In this document: one piece after another, positions 47,667-53,850 of the stretch
How the letters are laid out: each line of letters begins with the position of its first letter
Numbering within the stretch: the first letter of the stretch is position 1
Assembly: GCA_003635255.1 (NCBI GenBank)
Contig: PYJC01000068.1
Span: 1-64,000, forward strand
Length of the DNA stretch: 64,000 bases
Direction of reading: 5' to 3'
DNA from: Candidatus Poribacteria bacterium
Lineage (GTDB): Bacteria > Poribacteria > WGA-4E > WGA-3G
Program-made: the position numbers and the translations under genes
Notes under the pieces: generated by a model
Told to the model about the DNA's origin: nothing
Databases searched by the model: none
The model's input: only the letters and a program-made list of their open reading frames with translations

Positions 47667-48992
47667 TTAAAGTCCTTGTCCTATCAGCACCAGATCAAGG
47701 ATATTCACCACTTCGTCACCATTAACATCGGCGATGATACCAGGTCCCTCATCACCCAAGAACCGAGCTGCAATTACCAAATCTGACGCATTGACAAACC
47801 CGTCGTTGTTTAGGTCTTCGCGGCGCGGTATAATCGTTGCGAACTCCAAATTATTGGCACCGTGACCAACGTGATAGGATCGTAAAAGTGACGCATCTGC
47901 CACGTCCATGACGCGAACGTAATTCTGTCCGCTGCCCCCCCAGTCAGGTTGTGTGATATAGAGACTTCCATCTGGCGCAAAGGTCAAGCCGCCACTGACA
48001 GATGTATCTGCATCGTTGCTGAAGTTGGCAATCGTGTTATCTTCGTCACGGATCCAGTCTCGCGCGACGATATCGTAGATAAGCAAGCCGGGGTTTCGCC
48101 AACTGCCTTGCATAAACAACTGTTTTTCTGAATTGAGAGCGATGGAACCGGGTGTGAAATCGAGTTTAACCGTTTCCACTACCTCATCAGTATTCGCATC
48201 AATCAGAACGAGATGCCCGAGGACATCGTTGTAATTGCCTGTCGTCTTAACAATAACAGTCGATTCACCATCGTTGAGGATTTGACCCGCGTTCGTCGGT
48301 ACCGGAATAGATTTCAATATGATATCTGTCTCTGTATCAATCACTGTGACACTACTATCATAATAACTTACTCTCCCGGCAACGGGATCCCACTCCCATG
48401 CGGGGTTCGAGACATAGGCTTTGCCGTTGAGAAGCGTGATACCCGTCGGTTTGTTGAAAGAACCCGTGAGGACCTTCGTCACATTGCGATTCGGAATGTC
48501 AACGACATGCACCTCATGCGCCGCGGCACACGTAACGTATAACTTCTGATCACTGACCAAAGCGACCTGCTGTGGGGTTGTACCCGCTTCCATCGGGATT
48601 TCGCCAACAAACTCTCGATCTTCCAAGTTAATAATCAAAATATTGTCACCGGAACTCATTCCACCCGTGATAGGTAAGTTGAAACTCGTGACATAGGCGA
48701 GATGCCCGTGAACAGAGAGACCAATTGCCCGCCGCCGCAATCTCGGAGCAAAGCCGATGGAGAGTATCTCGTTGTCAACAGCCTGTCTCTCATTTGGCTC
48801 TTCCAGATCAATGAGTGAAACTGAGGCGATGATGCCCAAATCCGGATGCGTCAGCGCATTTATGACAACAGCCGTGTTCGCCTCTTCTGTTTGTCCTAAA
48901 GCAGGATTAAGGGTGAGAGTGAAAAGGATCGCGCCTATAAACAGGAGCGAATAGCGCGAGAAATGTCGCCAAGTGAAAAAAAATCTGTTCAT
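47667..48992 (-). CDS. exported beta-propeller-dockerin protein under cobalamin control
   Basis: 441 residues from the ATG at 48992, which has GGAGG upstream; a frame to 49031 would start inside the terminator hairpin. A signal peptide or N-terminal anchor (about 15-35) is followed by a YncE-like beta-propeller (about 40-380), with repeated V-I-D-T and L-V-L-I-D-A-N-T-D-E-V blade edges. The C-terminus has two calcium-type loops, D-L-N-N-D-G-F-V-N-A-S-D-L and D-V-N-G-D-E-V-V-N-I-L-D-L, a dockerin type I pattern. The gene is directly behind a cobalamin riboswitch and terminator, so it is presumably repressed by B12 and may help capture corrinoids. Confidence 0.8.
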   Translation of the reverse strand: MNRFFFTWRHFSRYSLLFIGAILFTLTLNPALGQTEEANTAVVINALTHPDLGIIASVSLIDLEEPNERQAVDNEILSIGFAPRLRRRAIGLSVHGHLAYVTSFNLPITGGMSSGDNILIINLEDREFVGEIPMEAGTTPQQVALVSDQKLYVTCAAAHEVHVVDIPNRNVTKVLTGSFNKPTGITLLNGKAYVSNPAWEWDPVAGRVSYYDSSVTVIDTETDIILKSIPVPTNAGQILNDGESTVIVKTTGNYNDVLGHLVLIDANTDEVVETVKLDFTPGSIALNSEKQLFMQGSWRNPGLLIYDIVARDWIRDEDNTIANFSNDADTSVSGGLTFAPDGSLYITQPDWGGSGQNYVRVMDVADASLLRSYHVGHGANNLEFATIIPRREDLNNDGFVNASDLVIAARFLGDEGPGIIADVNGDEVVNILDLVLIGQGL

Positions 48993-49012
48993 TAAAACCT
49001 CCGTAATGAAAC

Positions 49013-49045
49013 AAAAAACCCCTGCTTTCATTGAAAAGACAGGGG
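49013..49045 (-). terminator. riboswitch expression-platform terminator
   Basis: On the minus strand CCCCTG ... CAGGGG forms a bulged stem (49019-49045) followed by TTTTTT (49013-49018). It lies between the cobalamin riboswitch and the start codon of the propeller-dockerin gene, the normal place for ligand-controlled termination. Confidence 0.8.
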
Positions 49046-49186
49046 ATGCGGCGACACTCTATGTATGCTAAATCCTGCAATTGTGTCCGAAGATATTGTA
49101 CCTTACACGGGTTCTTCTATACTAACAGGATACTGCTGCGCGCTGTTCCACCGCTTTCCCGCGAAAGCAGATGCGTGAAACACGAT

Positions 49187-49352
49187 CCAGGCAGGTCTCC
49201 TGACTTCCGATCTTGCGTCCCCTGAACCTTCCCATCAGTTGGTTGACAGTGGTTTTTTCAGCGGATATTTGTGATCGTTCACAGTGGCGGGGCCGTGGCG
49301 GATTCTCACCGCACTTCCCTATTCTCCGGCTTTCTCCGGCACCTGAACCGTT
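49187..49352 (-). promoter_or_regulatory. cobalamin (B12) riboswitch
   Basis: On the minus strand the conserved blocks occur in the known order: GGTGCC near 49340, AATAGGGAA, GAGAATCCG, then the B12-box core CCGCCACTGTGA, and finally GTCAGGAGACCTGCC (49188-49203). The aptamer is followed by a terminator and the propeller-dockerin gene. High B12 would stop transcription. Confidence 0.92.
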
Positions 49353-49376
49353 AATTTATTCTATTGTAATGCATAT

Positions 49377-49405: not shown

Positions 49406-49444
49406 ATTTTTTGCGAAGTGTGGAAAAATAAAAATATAAAAAAT

Positions 49445-49473
49445 TTGACAACACAAATTAGATGTGGTATTAT
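49445..49473 (+). promoter_or_regulatory. promoter of the hisI-trpEG leader
   Basis: TTGACA (49445-49450), 17-bp spacer, TATTAT (49468-49473). It faces the leader peptide whose ATG is at 49519. Confidence 0.7.
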
Positions 49474-49518
49474 TAATAGCAGTGTTCAAAATCAAATATT
49501 TTGTTGAAAGTGAGAAAA

Positions 49519-49620
49519 ATGATACTTGTACGCTCACACTCCAACCCGCATAGCGTATCTAACCATTGGCATTGGTGGCGGTCCAGTTGCTTGTGGGGGA
49601 GTGTGCGCTCAAACGGATAA
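49519..49620 (+). CDS. 33-residue His/Trp-rich leader peptide
   Basis: A small ORF of 33 codons ahead of hisI-trpE. It contains four Trp (W17, W19, W20, W26) and four His (H7, H11, H16, H18), with the run H-W-H-W-W at 16-20. This is far richer than normal protein and typical of attenuator leaders. A stem between CACACTCC (49535-49542) and GGAGTGTG (49598-49605) would be opened by a translating ribosome. An intrinsic terminator lies 50 bases past its stop. GAAAGTGAG precedes the ATG. The arrangement predicts that scarcity of charged tRNA-Trp, and perhaps of tRNA-His, raises expression. Confidence 0.72.
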   Translation: MILVRSHSNPHSVSNHWHWWRSSCLWGSVRSNG

Positions 49621-49672
49621 CTGAAATAGAGATTGAAAATCGTCGTTTTTCATTTTTAAGTCCTGTTGAAGC

Positions 49673-49711
49673 CTTATGCACACCGATCCCGGTAGCATAA
49701 GTTTTTTTTTT
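49673..49711 (+). terminator. leader terminator before hisI
   Basis: CTTATGC (49673-49679) pairs with GCATAAG (49695-49701), followed by ten T (49702-49711). It lies between the leader peptide stop and the hisI start, where an attenuator should stand. Confidence 0.8.
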
Positions 49712-49764
49712 GCATAGCTCACAGGTTACCAAAACTTGCTATTGAAAATAAGAGGAGAATCCGA

Positions 49765-50145
49765 ATGAAAATTTTGTCGGAACTCAAATATGACAGTGAT
49801 GGCTTGGTCGCCGCAGTCATTCAAGATCGCACAAACAATGAAGTCCTAATGGTCGGCTATATGAACGCCGAAGCAATAACGGAAACGCTGACAACCGGGC
49901 GCGTCTGCTTCTGGAGCCGTTCCCGCCAAAAACTATGGATCAAGGGGGAGACTTCAGGGCATACACAGACAGTGGAATCTGTCGCAGTCGATTGCGACGG
50001 CGATGCCCTGCTCATAAAGGTTGAGCAAAAAGTCGCAGCGTGCCATGTCGGCTATCGCTCCTGCTTCTTTCGGGAAGTCTCCCCCGACGGAGAGTCAACG
50101 CGTGTGGTAGGTGATAAAATTTTCGAGGCTGATACGGTCTATTAG
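49765..50145 (+). CDS. hisI: phosphoribosyl-AMP cyclohydrolase
   Basis: 126 residues, the single-domain form without a HisE part. The zinc-binding pattern D-C-D-G-D-A and C-H-V-G-Y-R-S-C-F is present, and the early segment V-G-Y-M-N-A-E-A. It opens the purine ring of PR-AMP, the third step of histidine synthesis. AGAGGAG precedes the ATG. trpE and trpG follow, so His and Trp genes share one unit with one leader, which may explain the mixed leader peptide. Confidence 0.95.
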   Translation: MKILSELKYDSDGLVAAVIQDRTNNEVLMVGYMNAEAITETLTTGRVCFWSRSRQKLWIKGETSGHTQTVESVAVDCDGDALLIKVEQKVAACHVGYRSCFFREVSPDGESTRVVGDKIFEADTVY

Positions 50146-50319: not shown

Positions 50320-51828
50320 ATGTATTATCCGACGTTAGAGGACTTTCGCGAGGCAGCGAAATTAGGAAACACCATACCGGTATACCGATCAATTCTGGCA
50401 GATATGGAGACACCAGTGTCTGCCTTTTACAAGTTGATGCCAGACAATTATGCGTTTTTGCTCGAAAGCGTTGAAGGCGGCGAAAACGTTGCGCGCTACT
50501 CTTTTTTGGGGAGTCAACCCTCAGTGCTTTTCCACAGTAAAGGGCATCAGGTTACCATTGAATACCTGGAAAAAGGCGAAACCGTAGTTCAGGAATACGA
50601 AGACCCGTTAAGTGCCCTTGAAGAAGTGATGCAGGATTACCGACCTGTTAACAATCCTGAGTTACCGAAATTCCACGGCGGCGCAGTCGGTTATATGAGT
50701 TATGACATGGTCCGATTTGTCGAGGAGCTGCCAGATAATACTGAGGATGAGCTACAATTGCCAGATTGCTTCTTCATGATTGCCGAGACCATCCTGATAT
50801 TTGATCACGTCAACCACCAGATCAAGGTTGTGGCGAACGCGCATATTGATGGAGATGTAGATACCGCTTATGCCGACGCTATTACGAAAATTGAAGCGTT
50901 GGTCGAAAAACTCATGGCTGCTTCCGAACCGCATTTACGCGCCGATAGGGGTGAACATCAGGGACGGTATGATAAAATCATAGCCGATCCCCAATCGAAT
51001 TTCACAAAATCCGATTACGAAGCCGCCGTCAGACACGCGAAGGAATACATAGCCGCAGGCGACATTATCCAGGTCGTACTTTCGCAGCGGTTCAGTTGTC
51101 CGGTATCTGTAGATTCATTTGATGTGTATCGGGCGTTGCGAGTGGTCAACCCATCGCCCTACATGTATTATCTGAAATTTGATGATTTTGATATTGTGGG
51201 GGCATCACCGGAGATGATGGTAAGAGTGGAAGATGGGCTCGTCCAAACGGTTCCAATTGCGGGCACACGCCCGCGCGGCACGACTCCAGAAGAAGACAAA
51301 GAGCTGGAACGGATACTCCTTGCTGATCCAAAGGAACGCGCCGAGCACGTTATGCTTGTGGATTTAGGACGCAACGACCTTGGTCGGGTCTGTGAATATC
51401 ACACTGTTGAAGTCACCGAACTCATGATAGTTGAACGCTTCTCACATGTGATGCACATCGTTTCGCACGTTATTGGACAGCTGCGCGAAAATTTTACGGC
51501 TTTTGATGTCCTCCGGTCATGTCTTCCCGCTGGCACCCTCTCCGGCGCGCCGAAGGTACGGGCAATGGAAATTATTGACGAACTTGAATCTACACGGCGC
51601 GGCACTTACGGCGGGGCTGTCGGTTATTTCAGTTTTTCCGGTAGTGCAGACACAGCGATTACCATCCGAACCGCGGTTATCAAAGACGGCACCGCTTATG
51701 TGCAAGCCGGTGGCGGGATCGTCGCAGATTCAGTACCTGAAACTGAGTACTACGAAACTCTCAGTAAAGCGAAAGCAATGCTCAGTGCCATCGCATTGGC
51801 TGAAGAACAGTTAGCGGTTTTCAGTTAA
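50320..51828 (+). CDS. trpE: anthranilate synthase component I
   Basis: 502 residues. The N-terminal L-L-E-S motif (47-50) is the site of Trp feedback inhibition. The chorismate-binding half has G-T-R-P-R-G, G-T-L-S-G-A-P-K and A-G-G-G-I-V-A-D-S. Together with TrpG it makes anthranilate from chorismate and glutamine. It lies 174 bases after hisI; the gap holds a hairpin GGGCTT/AAGCCC (50162-50176) with no T-run, so read-through is likely. trpG starts 36 bases after its stop. Confidence 0.95.
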   Translation: MYYPTLEDFREAAKLGNTIPVYRSILADMETPVSAFYKLMPDNYAFLLESVEGGENVARYSFLGSQPSVLFHSKGHQVTIEYLEKGETVVQEYEDPLSALEEVMQDYRPVNNPELPKFHGGAVGYMSYDMVRFVEELPDNTEDELQLPDCFFMIAETILIFDHVNHQIKVVANAHIDGDVDTAYADAITKIEALVEKLMAASEPHLRADRGEHQGRYDKIIADPQSNFTKSDYEAAVRHAKEYIAAGDIIQVVLSQRFSCPVSVDSFDVYRALRVVNPSPYMYYLKFDDFDIVGASPEMMVRVEDGLVQTVPIAGTRPRGTTPEEDKELERILLADPKERAEHVMLVDLGRNDLGRVCEYHTVEVTELMIVERFSHVMHIVSHVIGQLRENFTAFDVLRSCLPAGTLSGAPKVRAMEIIDELESTRRGTYGGAVGYFSFSGSADTAITIRTAVIKDGTAYVQAGGGIVADSVPETEYYETLSKAKAMLSAIALAEEQLAVFS

Positions 51829-51864: not shown

Positions 51865-52428
51865 ATGGTTTTAATGATTGATAACTACGACTCTTTTACC
51901 TATAACTTGGTGCAGTATTTGGGTGAACTCGGTGCTGAACTCGAGGTCCATCGGAGTCGAAAGATAGGATTGGATACATTAGACGCACTGGCACCCGAAC
52001 GGATTGTCATTTCACCCGGACCTTGCACACCGAAAGAGGCGGGTATATCCAACGATACTATACAACACTTCGCCGGGAAAATCCCGATCTTAGGCGTCTG
52101 CCTTGGGCATCAGTGCATCGGAGACGTATTCGGTGGTGATGTCGTTCGTGCGGATCGGTTGATGCACGGCAAAACCTCAATGATCCACCATAACGGCACC
52201 GAACTCTTTGAGGGATTGGATAACCCGTTTGAAGCGACACGCTACCACTCACTCATCGTGAAAAAAGATACGTTACCCGATTGCCTTGAGATTACCGCGT
52301 GGACAGATCAGGACGAAATCATGGGACTCCGGCATAAGAGTTTGCCTATTTGGGGCGTACAATTCCACCCGGAATCCATTCTGACAGCCGCCGGGAAAAG
52401 TCTACTCAGCAATTTCTTAACGCTATAG
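51865..52428 (+). CDS. trpG: anthranilate/aminodeoxychorismate synthase glutaminase
   Basis: 187 residues, class I glutamine amidotransferase. The nucleophile C79 sits in G-V-C-L-G-H-Q, and the His-Glu pair in Q-F-H-P-E-S. It supplies ammonia to TrpE and, in many bacteria, also to PabB. Neighbouring trpE makes the tryptophan role the first choice. AAGGAAAA precedes the ATG. No trpD, trpC, trpB or trpA follows. Confidence 0.93.
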
Positions 52429-52448: not shown

Positions 52449-53207
52449 ATGACAAAACAGACAAGTGCTACGCCGGTCTTAGTTTCCTGGTCGTCAGGCA
52501 AAGATTCGGCGTGGGCACTTCATACCTTACGCCAACAACCTGAACGCTACGACGTACGTGGCATCTTTACGACCGTCACGAAGACGTTTGACCGGGTCTC
52601 TATTCATTCTACACCTGCATGGGTACTGAAACAGCAGGCAGAAAAACTCAGCGTGCCGTTATACGAGATACCGATCCCTTATCCGTGTTCCAACACAATC
52701 TATGAGGAGGCAATGCGAAAGTTCCTTGCTGAAGTCAAAGCGTTGCCTGAACATTTGACAGCGTCACATTTCGCATTCGGGGACCTCTTCCTGGAAGACA
52801 TCCGTGCATACCGCGAGGATAAACTCAAAGGCACCGGTTTCACACCAATTTTCCCAGTGTGGGGAGAGGACACACCGCTACTTGCGCAAAAGATGATTGC
52901 TTCTGGCTTGCGCGCTATCATCACTGCGCTTAATCCTACCAAAGTCCCCGCCGACTTTGCAGGACGATGGTTTGACGCGGACCTCCTCGCAGATTTGCCA
53001 GACGGCGTGGATCCACTCGGTGAAAACGGGGAGTTCCATACCTGCGTCGTGGATGGACCGATGTTCAGTTCACCTGTCGCCGCGAAACCGGGCGAAGTCG
53101 TCCAGAGAGACATCGTCTCTAAAAAGGATAAAGATGACAAAATTCACACAAGCAGCAACACGTCACCGACTTATATCTATGCTGATGTGGTACCTATAGA
53201 TGAATAA
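52449..53207 (+). CDS. Dph6-like PP-loop ATPase (first copy)
   Basis: 252 residues. The PP-loop pyrophosphatase motif S-S-G-K-D-S-A is at the N-terminus, and the later G-E-N-G-E-F-H-T is typical of the diphthine-ammonia ligase (DUF71) family. In archaea and eukaryotes it amidates diphthine on elongation factor 2; bacteria lack diphthamide, so the substrate here must be different. AAAGG precedes the ATG at 52449; an in-frame ATG at 52350 lies inside trpG. Its stop overlaps the next gene by eight bases. Confidence 0.85.
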   Translation: MTKQTSATPVLVSWSSGKDSAWALHTLRQQPERYDVRGIFTTVTKTFDRVSIHSTPAWVLKQQAEKLSVPLYEIPIPYPCSNTIYEEAMRKFLAEVKALPEHLTASHFAFGDLFLEDIRAYREDKLKGTGFTPIFPVWGEDTPLLAQKMIASGLRAIITALNPTKVPADFAGRWFDADLLADLPDGVDPLGENGEFHTCVVDGPMFSSPVAAKPGEVVQRDIVSKKDKDDKIHTSSNTSPTYIYADVVPIDE

Positions 53208-53850
53208 TTGGAAGAAAGCAGCTGTGCTGTGGACAGGCGGAAAAGATTCCGCACTCGCATTTCAAGTCTCCTTGAATCTTTACGATATAGGGAGGCTTGT
53301 CTGTTTTGTGCCAGCGGACAACCGACAATTCTACGCGCATCCAACGCAACTCATGGAACTACAAGCACAAAAGATCGGGATGCCAATTGAATTCGTGCCG
53401 ATTTCCGAACCCTATAAACAGAGTTACTGCCAACAAATTGAGGCGATTAGAGACAGTGGTACTGAAGTGTTAATTACCGGAGATATTTCTACTGTCGGTG
53501 GGATGCCGAATTGGATAGAGGAAGTCGCAGCAGGTTTGGTGGAAGTCTACAAACCGTTGTGGGAATCGGATCGGCATACAATATTGGATACCCTCATCGC
53601 CAACAAATTTAAGGTCGTCTGTTCCCTCGCTTACAAAAAGCACTTCCAACCGACTATTGCCGGTAGGTATTTCGATGCTAAACTCATTTCAGAACTGAAG
53701 CAACTCCCAATTGACGCATGCGGTGAACAGGGTGAATACCACACATGGGTATTAGACGCACCGTTCTTCAAGGAGTCAGTGCAGTTAGAAGGCACACGTG
53801 TAGTTGATGTTGACGAGTATTGCTACCTCACCTACGAACAAGCAATTTAG
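53200..53850 (+). CDS. Dph6-like PP-loop ATPase (second copy)
   Basis: 216 residues of the same fold: W-T-G-G-K-D-S-A (10-17) and C-G-E-Q-G-E-Y-H-T at about 190. Its start overlaps the last eight bases of the first copy, pointing to translational coupling and perhaps a heteromer. The two proteins are diverged, so this is an old duplication. The substrate is not known; both follow trpG, which carries a glutaminase domain that could hand on ammonia. Confidence 0.82.
   Translation: MNNWKKAAVLWTGGKDSALAFQVSLNLYDIGRLVCFVPADNRQFYAHPTQLMELQAQKIGMPIEFVPISEPYKQSYCQQIEAIRDSGTEVLITGDISTVGGMPNWIEEVAAGLVEVYKPLWESDRHTILDTLIANKFKVVCSLAYKKHFQPTIAGRYFDAKLISELKQLPIDACGEQGEYHTWVLDAPFFKESVQLEGTRVVDVDEYCYLTYEQAI

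Follow-up and report, generated by a model that had tools for sequence, protein, structure and literature searches.

One leader before hisI-trpE-trpG in sponge-associated Poribacteria is most likely an RNA switch that senses shortage of histidine or tryptophan

Can a single leader transcript join the control of two unrelated amino acid pathways? The question is raised by a locus in a draft poribacterial genome of 5.38 Mb (G000), where a short open reading frame (ORF) crowded with His and Trp codons precedes hisI, trpE and trpG. The window, i.e., the whole stretch of DNA analysed, comprised 64,000 nucleotides (G000:C68:1-64000). The leader of these sponge-associated Poribacteria was found to be most likely one RNA switch that senses a shortage of either His or Trp and switches on the joint his/trp cluster. 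The order on the + strand is promoter, leader ORF, terminator and hisI-trpE-trpG (Table 1). The ORF of 33 codons with four His and four Trp codons, from which the original prediction had started, was present as described, and its regulatory codons are clustered between the promoter and the first gene, as expected of an attenuator. The promoter, a strong one as judged from its sequence, lies about 45 nt 5' of the leader ATG, and a sigma-70-like element was also seen 5' of the leader across the window's whole genus. The hisI and trpE genes were the sole copies found in G000. Its hisG, hisD, trpF and trpA genes were located on other contigs, and no His/Trp-rich ORF with a terminator was seen around those four loci, which makes the hisI-trpE-trpG locus the meeting place of the two pathways. 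The intergenic gaps in the window are 174 nt for hisI-trpE and 36 nt for trpE-trpG, and the hisI-trpE gap is about 20 nt in family f4. Transcription of the three genes as one unit is plausible but has not been shown, and the 174-nt gap leaves it open. Two Dph6-like ATP pyrophosphatase genes (52452-53207 and 53200-53850; PF01902, below the Dph6 equivalog cut-off) lie directly 3' of trpG and may share its transcript. On the other side, a cobalamin riboswitch (113.8 bits; 49173-49361, - strand) diverges from the leader promoter, and the gene downstream of it (47667-49031, - strand) encodes a dockerin-domain protein, an unusual partner for that riboswitch.

Table 1. Features of the leader and of the genes that follow it, in window coordinates.
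Feature	Position	Strand	Details
Sigma-70-like promoter	49445..49473	+	TTGACA, 17 nt, TATTAT, extended -10; consensus match 11/12
Leader peptide ORF, MILVRSHSNPHSVSNHWHWWRSSCLWGSVRSNG	49519..49620	+	33 codons and TAA; homologous ORF at ~70 distinct Poribacteria loci
Region 1, GCTCACACTCC, 5' arm of protector hairpin 1:2	49532..49542	+	1:2 fold z=-2.9 vs shuffles; native vs swapped p=5e-5
Regulatory codons CAT TGG CAT TGG TGG (His-Trp-His-Trp-Trp)	49564..49578	+	Column conservation in 64 aligned leaders; tracks hisI linkage
Region 2	49595..49608	+	Pairs with region 1 (49598-49608) or region 3 (GGGG 49595-49598, GUGUGC 49601-49606)
Intrinsic terminator	49673..49711	+	CTTATGC 49673-49679 / GCATAAG 49695-49701, then T10 49702-49711
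Region 3	49678..49690	+	GCACAC 49678-49683 (partner 49601-49606); UCCC 49687-49690 (partner 49595-49598)
hisI, phosphoribosyl-AMP cyclohydrolase	49765..50145	+	PF01502 124 bits; NF000768 above cut-off
trpE, anthranilate synthase component I	50320..51828	+	TIGR00564 600 bits, above cut-off
trpG, anthranilate synthase component II (glutamine amidotransferase)	51865..52428	+	PF00117, TIGR00566 above cut-off

The stem claimed within the coding part (49535-49542 with 49598-49605) was recovered and extends to 49532-49542/49598-49608; its arms, regions 1 and 2, are both situated within the leader ORF and flank the HWHWW core. The T10 terminator expected before hisI was also located, and its hairpin (z=-5.2 against shuffles) was equalled in stability by 0 of 200 shuffled sequences. 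The antiterminator, a pairing that the original prediction had been unable to confirm, was identified between 49595-49606 (region 2) and 49678-49690 (region 3). As region 3 includes the end of the terminator 5' arm, the helices 2:3 and 3:4 are mutually exclusive. Folding of the full leader yielded the 1:2 hairpin together with the terminator, and when region 1 was masked in silico the minimum free energy fold was the antiterminator (49595-49711, -28.1 kcal/mol). The leader stop codon (49618-49620) lies only about 10 nt 3' of region 2, so that a terminating ribosome would cover this region. The predicted layout, with a terminator between the ORF and the first gene, an exclusive antiterminator, a protector hairpin and a stop codon near region 2, is the classical attenuator geometry.

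Individual sequences gave unconvincing statistics. The 2:3 pairing within single genomes was often no better than in shuffles (median p 0.12; window p ~0.16), and the same applied to 1:2 in several distant families taken individually. Three loci (L003, L005 and L008) were dropped after the per-genome 2:3 shuffle test, the automated terminator finder having chosen wrong hairpins. Single-sequence folds and per-genome shuffles were replaced by comparative tests, in which partners were swapped among 21 representatives drawn from about 20 genera. Native 2:3 duplexes had a mean of -20.1 kcal/mol against -16.6 kcal/mol for partners swapped between genera, and the corresponding values for 1:2 were -21.1 and -17.2 kcal/mol (permutation p=5e-5 in both cases, uncorrected for relatedness). 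One representative (L016), which had a wrong region 2 in the 2:3 swap test owing to an early stop, was excluded from the 1:2 swap test and from the compensatory counts. When 20 representatives were aligned with MAFFT without structure, 12 both-sided compensatory cells were found in 2:3 and 22 in 3:4, and hardly any row permutation reached as many paired cells (p ~2e-4 both in the 2:3 core and in 3:4). Region 2 (AGUGUGC) is translated as S-V-R in the window's genus, as E-C-A-R in genus g20 and as S-V-P in family f4; it is conserved as RNA, given that its reading frame differs between genera. The mutually exclusive helices and their covariation across genera supported the attenuator reading, and the locus is very likely a classical ribosome-mediated transcription attenuator.

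The mechanism inferred from this layout would depend on where the ribosome halts. Under His or Trp starvation, a ribosome halted on HWHWW, between arms 1 and 2, would hold 1:2 open; region 2 could then pair with region 3, the terminator would not form and hisI-trpE-trpG would be transcribed. If neither amino acid is scarce, the ribosome would be expected to reach the stop codon and mask region 2, whereupon the terminator would form and transcription would stop at T10. Without translation, 1:2 would presumably form and transcription would likewise end. Because the His and Trp codons are interleaved, a shortage of either amino acid would halt translation within one and the same stretch of 15 nt, and the leader would act as an OR gate. 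Confidence in this ribosome-mediated OR gate is high, although there are no expression, ribosome or transcript-end data, and both the stalling and the termination are inferred.

Sensing of both amino acids was supported by a natural comparison of codon content with gene content. Each of the 70 leaders detected 5' of hisI has both His and Trp codons in its core; trpE was seen on the same contig for 66 of them, the remaining four being cut by contig ends. Four genomes (G060, G061, G040 and G037) have trpE without hisI in front and keep the homologous attenuator. The trpE leaders of G060 (FWRWWWRSVLVCPRQE), G061 (NWCWWWRNEVRVCPTPD) and G040 (KRWWYTSWGRSVPV) are Trp-based and have no core His, whereas that of G037 (SRWRHIDRSGSVPV), also Trp-based, retains a single His despite the absence of hisI in front and was scored as His reduced, not absent. 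Arg or Cys occupy the core His positions where hisI is missing. The leader codons largely follow the downstream genes, since among related attenuators His accompanies hisI and is absent or single before trpE alone; the regulatory codons match the downstream pathway as expected of an attenuator, with the exceptions of G037 and of a trpD leader in G051 described below. On the basis of this tracking of gene content, His is likely to be actually sensed, which remains to be shown. In the trpE tree the four hisI-less cases fell into two separate groups, and two changes were forced by well-supported branches. The sample is small, with two independent linkage changes only (two losses, or a gain and a loss), and the direction at the base is undecided because the tree was rooted at its midpoint: either the Trp-only form is ancestral and His codons arrived with hisI, or hisI disappeared on two occasions together with the His codons. 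A different hisI (~40% identical over the aligned part) occurs elsewhere in G037 and G040, and no comparable leader was found there. The leader is lacking in three hisI-linked lineages (G042, G062 and G063). The attenuator is gone with hisI-trpE kept at L248 and L249 (genus g18) and at L049/L208 (G042); the hisI-trpE gap of G042 contains AGTGTGCCTGT, which is similar to region 2 and is perhaps a remnant.

At the five core positions, the 64 aligned leaders contained H in 52, W in 64, H in 61, W in 64 and W in 59; the two invariant W columns anchored the alignment and are W by construction. His in the core is encoded by CAC as well as CAT, and in distant families the order of the core changes (HHHWCWW, RHWHWRS, GHWHWGW, RWWWHWRGH, YHRHW) with both His and Trp persisting. 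Each of the two amino acids is conserved in the control region, as expected of a multivalent attenuator. An attenuator that senses Trp only, its His codons being incidental or maintained by demands of the RNA or of the decoding context, is difficult to reconcile with the retention of His at two positions between and before the Trp codons, with the use of both His codons, with the persistence of His in a different order in distant families, and with the replacement of His by Arg or Cys at these same positions where hisI is absent. Its merits are that Trp recurs in every homologous leader irrespective of hisI, that linkage changed independently just twice, and that His occurs without a his gene in the G051 trpD-trpC-trpF leader and once without hisI in G037; it was judged unlikely, without being dismissed. 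In two loci (L026 and L028) HWHWW is interrupted by 39 inserted nt (EHWQCEAKTNSARVGRIWWHS), which are in frame and form a hairpin, and the ORF stays intact.

HWHWW is conserved as a peptide and the core is shared across families, but the N- and C-terminal portions differ from family to family, and the frame of the C-terminus varies between genera. A rival reading, in which the small peptide itself acts in trans and the arrangement of the genes is merely secondary, has a precedent in peTrpL of Sinorhizobium meliloti (PMC7298713); the retention of core codon identity alone, in varying order, renders this very improbable. Among homologous leaders before hisI the His and Trp codons were kept, and the outcome that would have refuted the original prediction, namely loci with no ORF or with random codons, was absent except in a few lineages that lost the entire element. 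The 15-mer CAYTGGCAYTGGTGG gave 56 matches in 85 Poribacteria genomes, about 51 of them leaders, against 4 for its reversed control pattern in the same genomes, so the leader is not a product of chance. The five matches outside hisI loci (G042:C409, G029:C132, G035:C51, G020:C48 and G024:C70) were discarded as unrelated coding sequence. The Rfam models of the Trp leader, the His leader and the T-box gave no match at the gathering cut-off, and a search of 49420-49780 with Rfam, T-box included, gave none up to E=10. A chance ORF near a standard terminator, or else a T-box or other riboswitch that involves no leader peptide, could be entertained given that the whole leader folded alone is unremarkable in stability (z=-1.45), but it matches no Rfam family and is already contradicted by the conservation of the core codons and both alternative helices across families, which leaves this explanation scarcely tenable. 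Outside Poribacteria, upstream scans of loci with hisI beside trpE (two in Micromonospora and one in Omnitrophota) revealed no such leader; for one Micromonospora locus (L127) the scan listed zero candidate ORFs.

Further members of the family were obtained with a covariance model of regions 2 to 4 (R1) searched over the phylum. The element precedes trpS in G060 (MEFIFTTLKKHLYKIGIWRWWCIDVQVCPKL), with Trp codons, and the trpS of G052 is also preceded by a Trp-rich ORF with a terminator. In G060 (MFNTTNYQINIRFWRWYWRFYRLVYPRHGG) and G061 (MLISFANQTNFNINNYWRWYWRFEILMCPDESV) it precedes genes for 2-amino-3,7-dideoxy-D-threo-hept-6-ulosonate (ADTH) synthase, trpC and a TrpB-like protein, and carries Trp, Tyr and Phe codons. 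ADTH synthase is the entry enzyme of an alternative pathway leading to dehydroquinate and to every aromatic amino acid, which the codons of these leaders fit. In G051 (MTTFGQKVYISHAYHWFWWWPGVGACPGRG) the element precedes a small Lrp-like gene, trpD, trpC and trpF; its two His codons weaken strict matching of codons to genes, as no known his gene was seen, the contig ending just beyond trpF. A single reprogrammable architecture before trpE, hisI-trpE-trpG, trpS, ADTH synthase-trpC-trpB and trpD-trpC-trpF, with codons rewritten to match the genes that follow, is somewhat favoured. If true, it would provide His plus Trp cross-pathway sensing as well as Trp plus Tyr plus Phe sensing, and codon content would record operon history.

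Enterobacterial trpL resembles the Poribacteria leader in its leader ORF with a Trp run, its exclusive 1:2, 2:3 and 3:4 helices and its terminator before trp genes. Unlike trpL, the Poribacteria leader interleaves codons of a second, unrelated amino acid, has hisI as the first gene, places arm 1 upstream of the regulatory codons and matches no Rfam leader model. Candidate trp and trpS attenuators of the trpL type are known from Corynebacterium and Streptomyces (PMC1262725), and Poribacteria likewise have a trpS leader. Enterobacterial hisL is similar in that a leader ORF with His codons and an alternative terminator precede a his gene. It carries a long His run, whereas the Poribacteria leader has two to four His mixed with Trp and would control hisI alone of the his genes. 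The leaders of ilvGMEDA and thrABC each combine codons of at least two amino acids, all from one pathway; such a combination is a trait shared with the Poribacteria leader, as is, by inference, derepression by shortage of any of them, but the His and Trp pathways are separate and meet only in gene order. The multi-amino-acid attenuators known to us all sense products of one pathway. Both operons are listed among the attenuated ones (PMC1183508). A T-box riboswitch is comparable in that one architecture with a changeable, codon-like specifier stands before different amino acid genes; it binds tRNA directly, in contrast to the translating ribosome proposed as the Poribacteria sensor. The best reading is that the dual His/Trp OR gate is a rewriting of the classical ribosome-mediated transcription attenuator, its response to both amino acids being inferred. 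Searches of the open-licence literature yielded neither a dual His/Trp leader nor any study of attenuators in Poribacteria, although a subscription paper on such a leader could exist. According to a survey from 2010, leader-peptide attenuators had until then been demonstrated solely in Proteobacteria and Actinobacteria, to which the survey itself added Firmicutes (PMC2965389). The Poribacteria locus adds a covariation-supported one in an uncultured phylum and appears to couple two unrelated pathways through one leader, and the phylum-wide comparison makes the retuning of a ribosome-based sensor upon a change of operon content directly testable.

Second copies of the attenuator were observed in the window's genus and family (L277, L278, L279, L282, L283, L284, L289, L290 and L294) and in its own genome (G000:C87:35485-35609). 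Their leaders have cores such as FKRWHNKRPN and FKPRPCGW in place of NHWHWW, and the large ORF that follows often encodes an ABC transporter at a distance of about 300 nt, the neighbours in the other cases being unrelated genes; whether these copies are decayed duplicates or a retargeted sensor is unexplained. In two loci trpE is followed, in the same orientation, by a trpS-like gene (L319, G048:C802:39-371; L310, G061:C337:2913-3365), where tRNA-Trp charging and Trp synthesis may consequently share an attenuator. The trpE match of G064, a near-complete genome, is in two pieces (L250, G064:C1:255217-256785), which suggests an insertion or interruption within the gene. Second PF04715 matches, e.g., in G044 and G052, resemble pabB.
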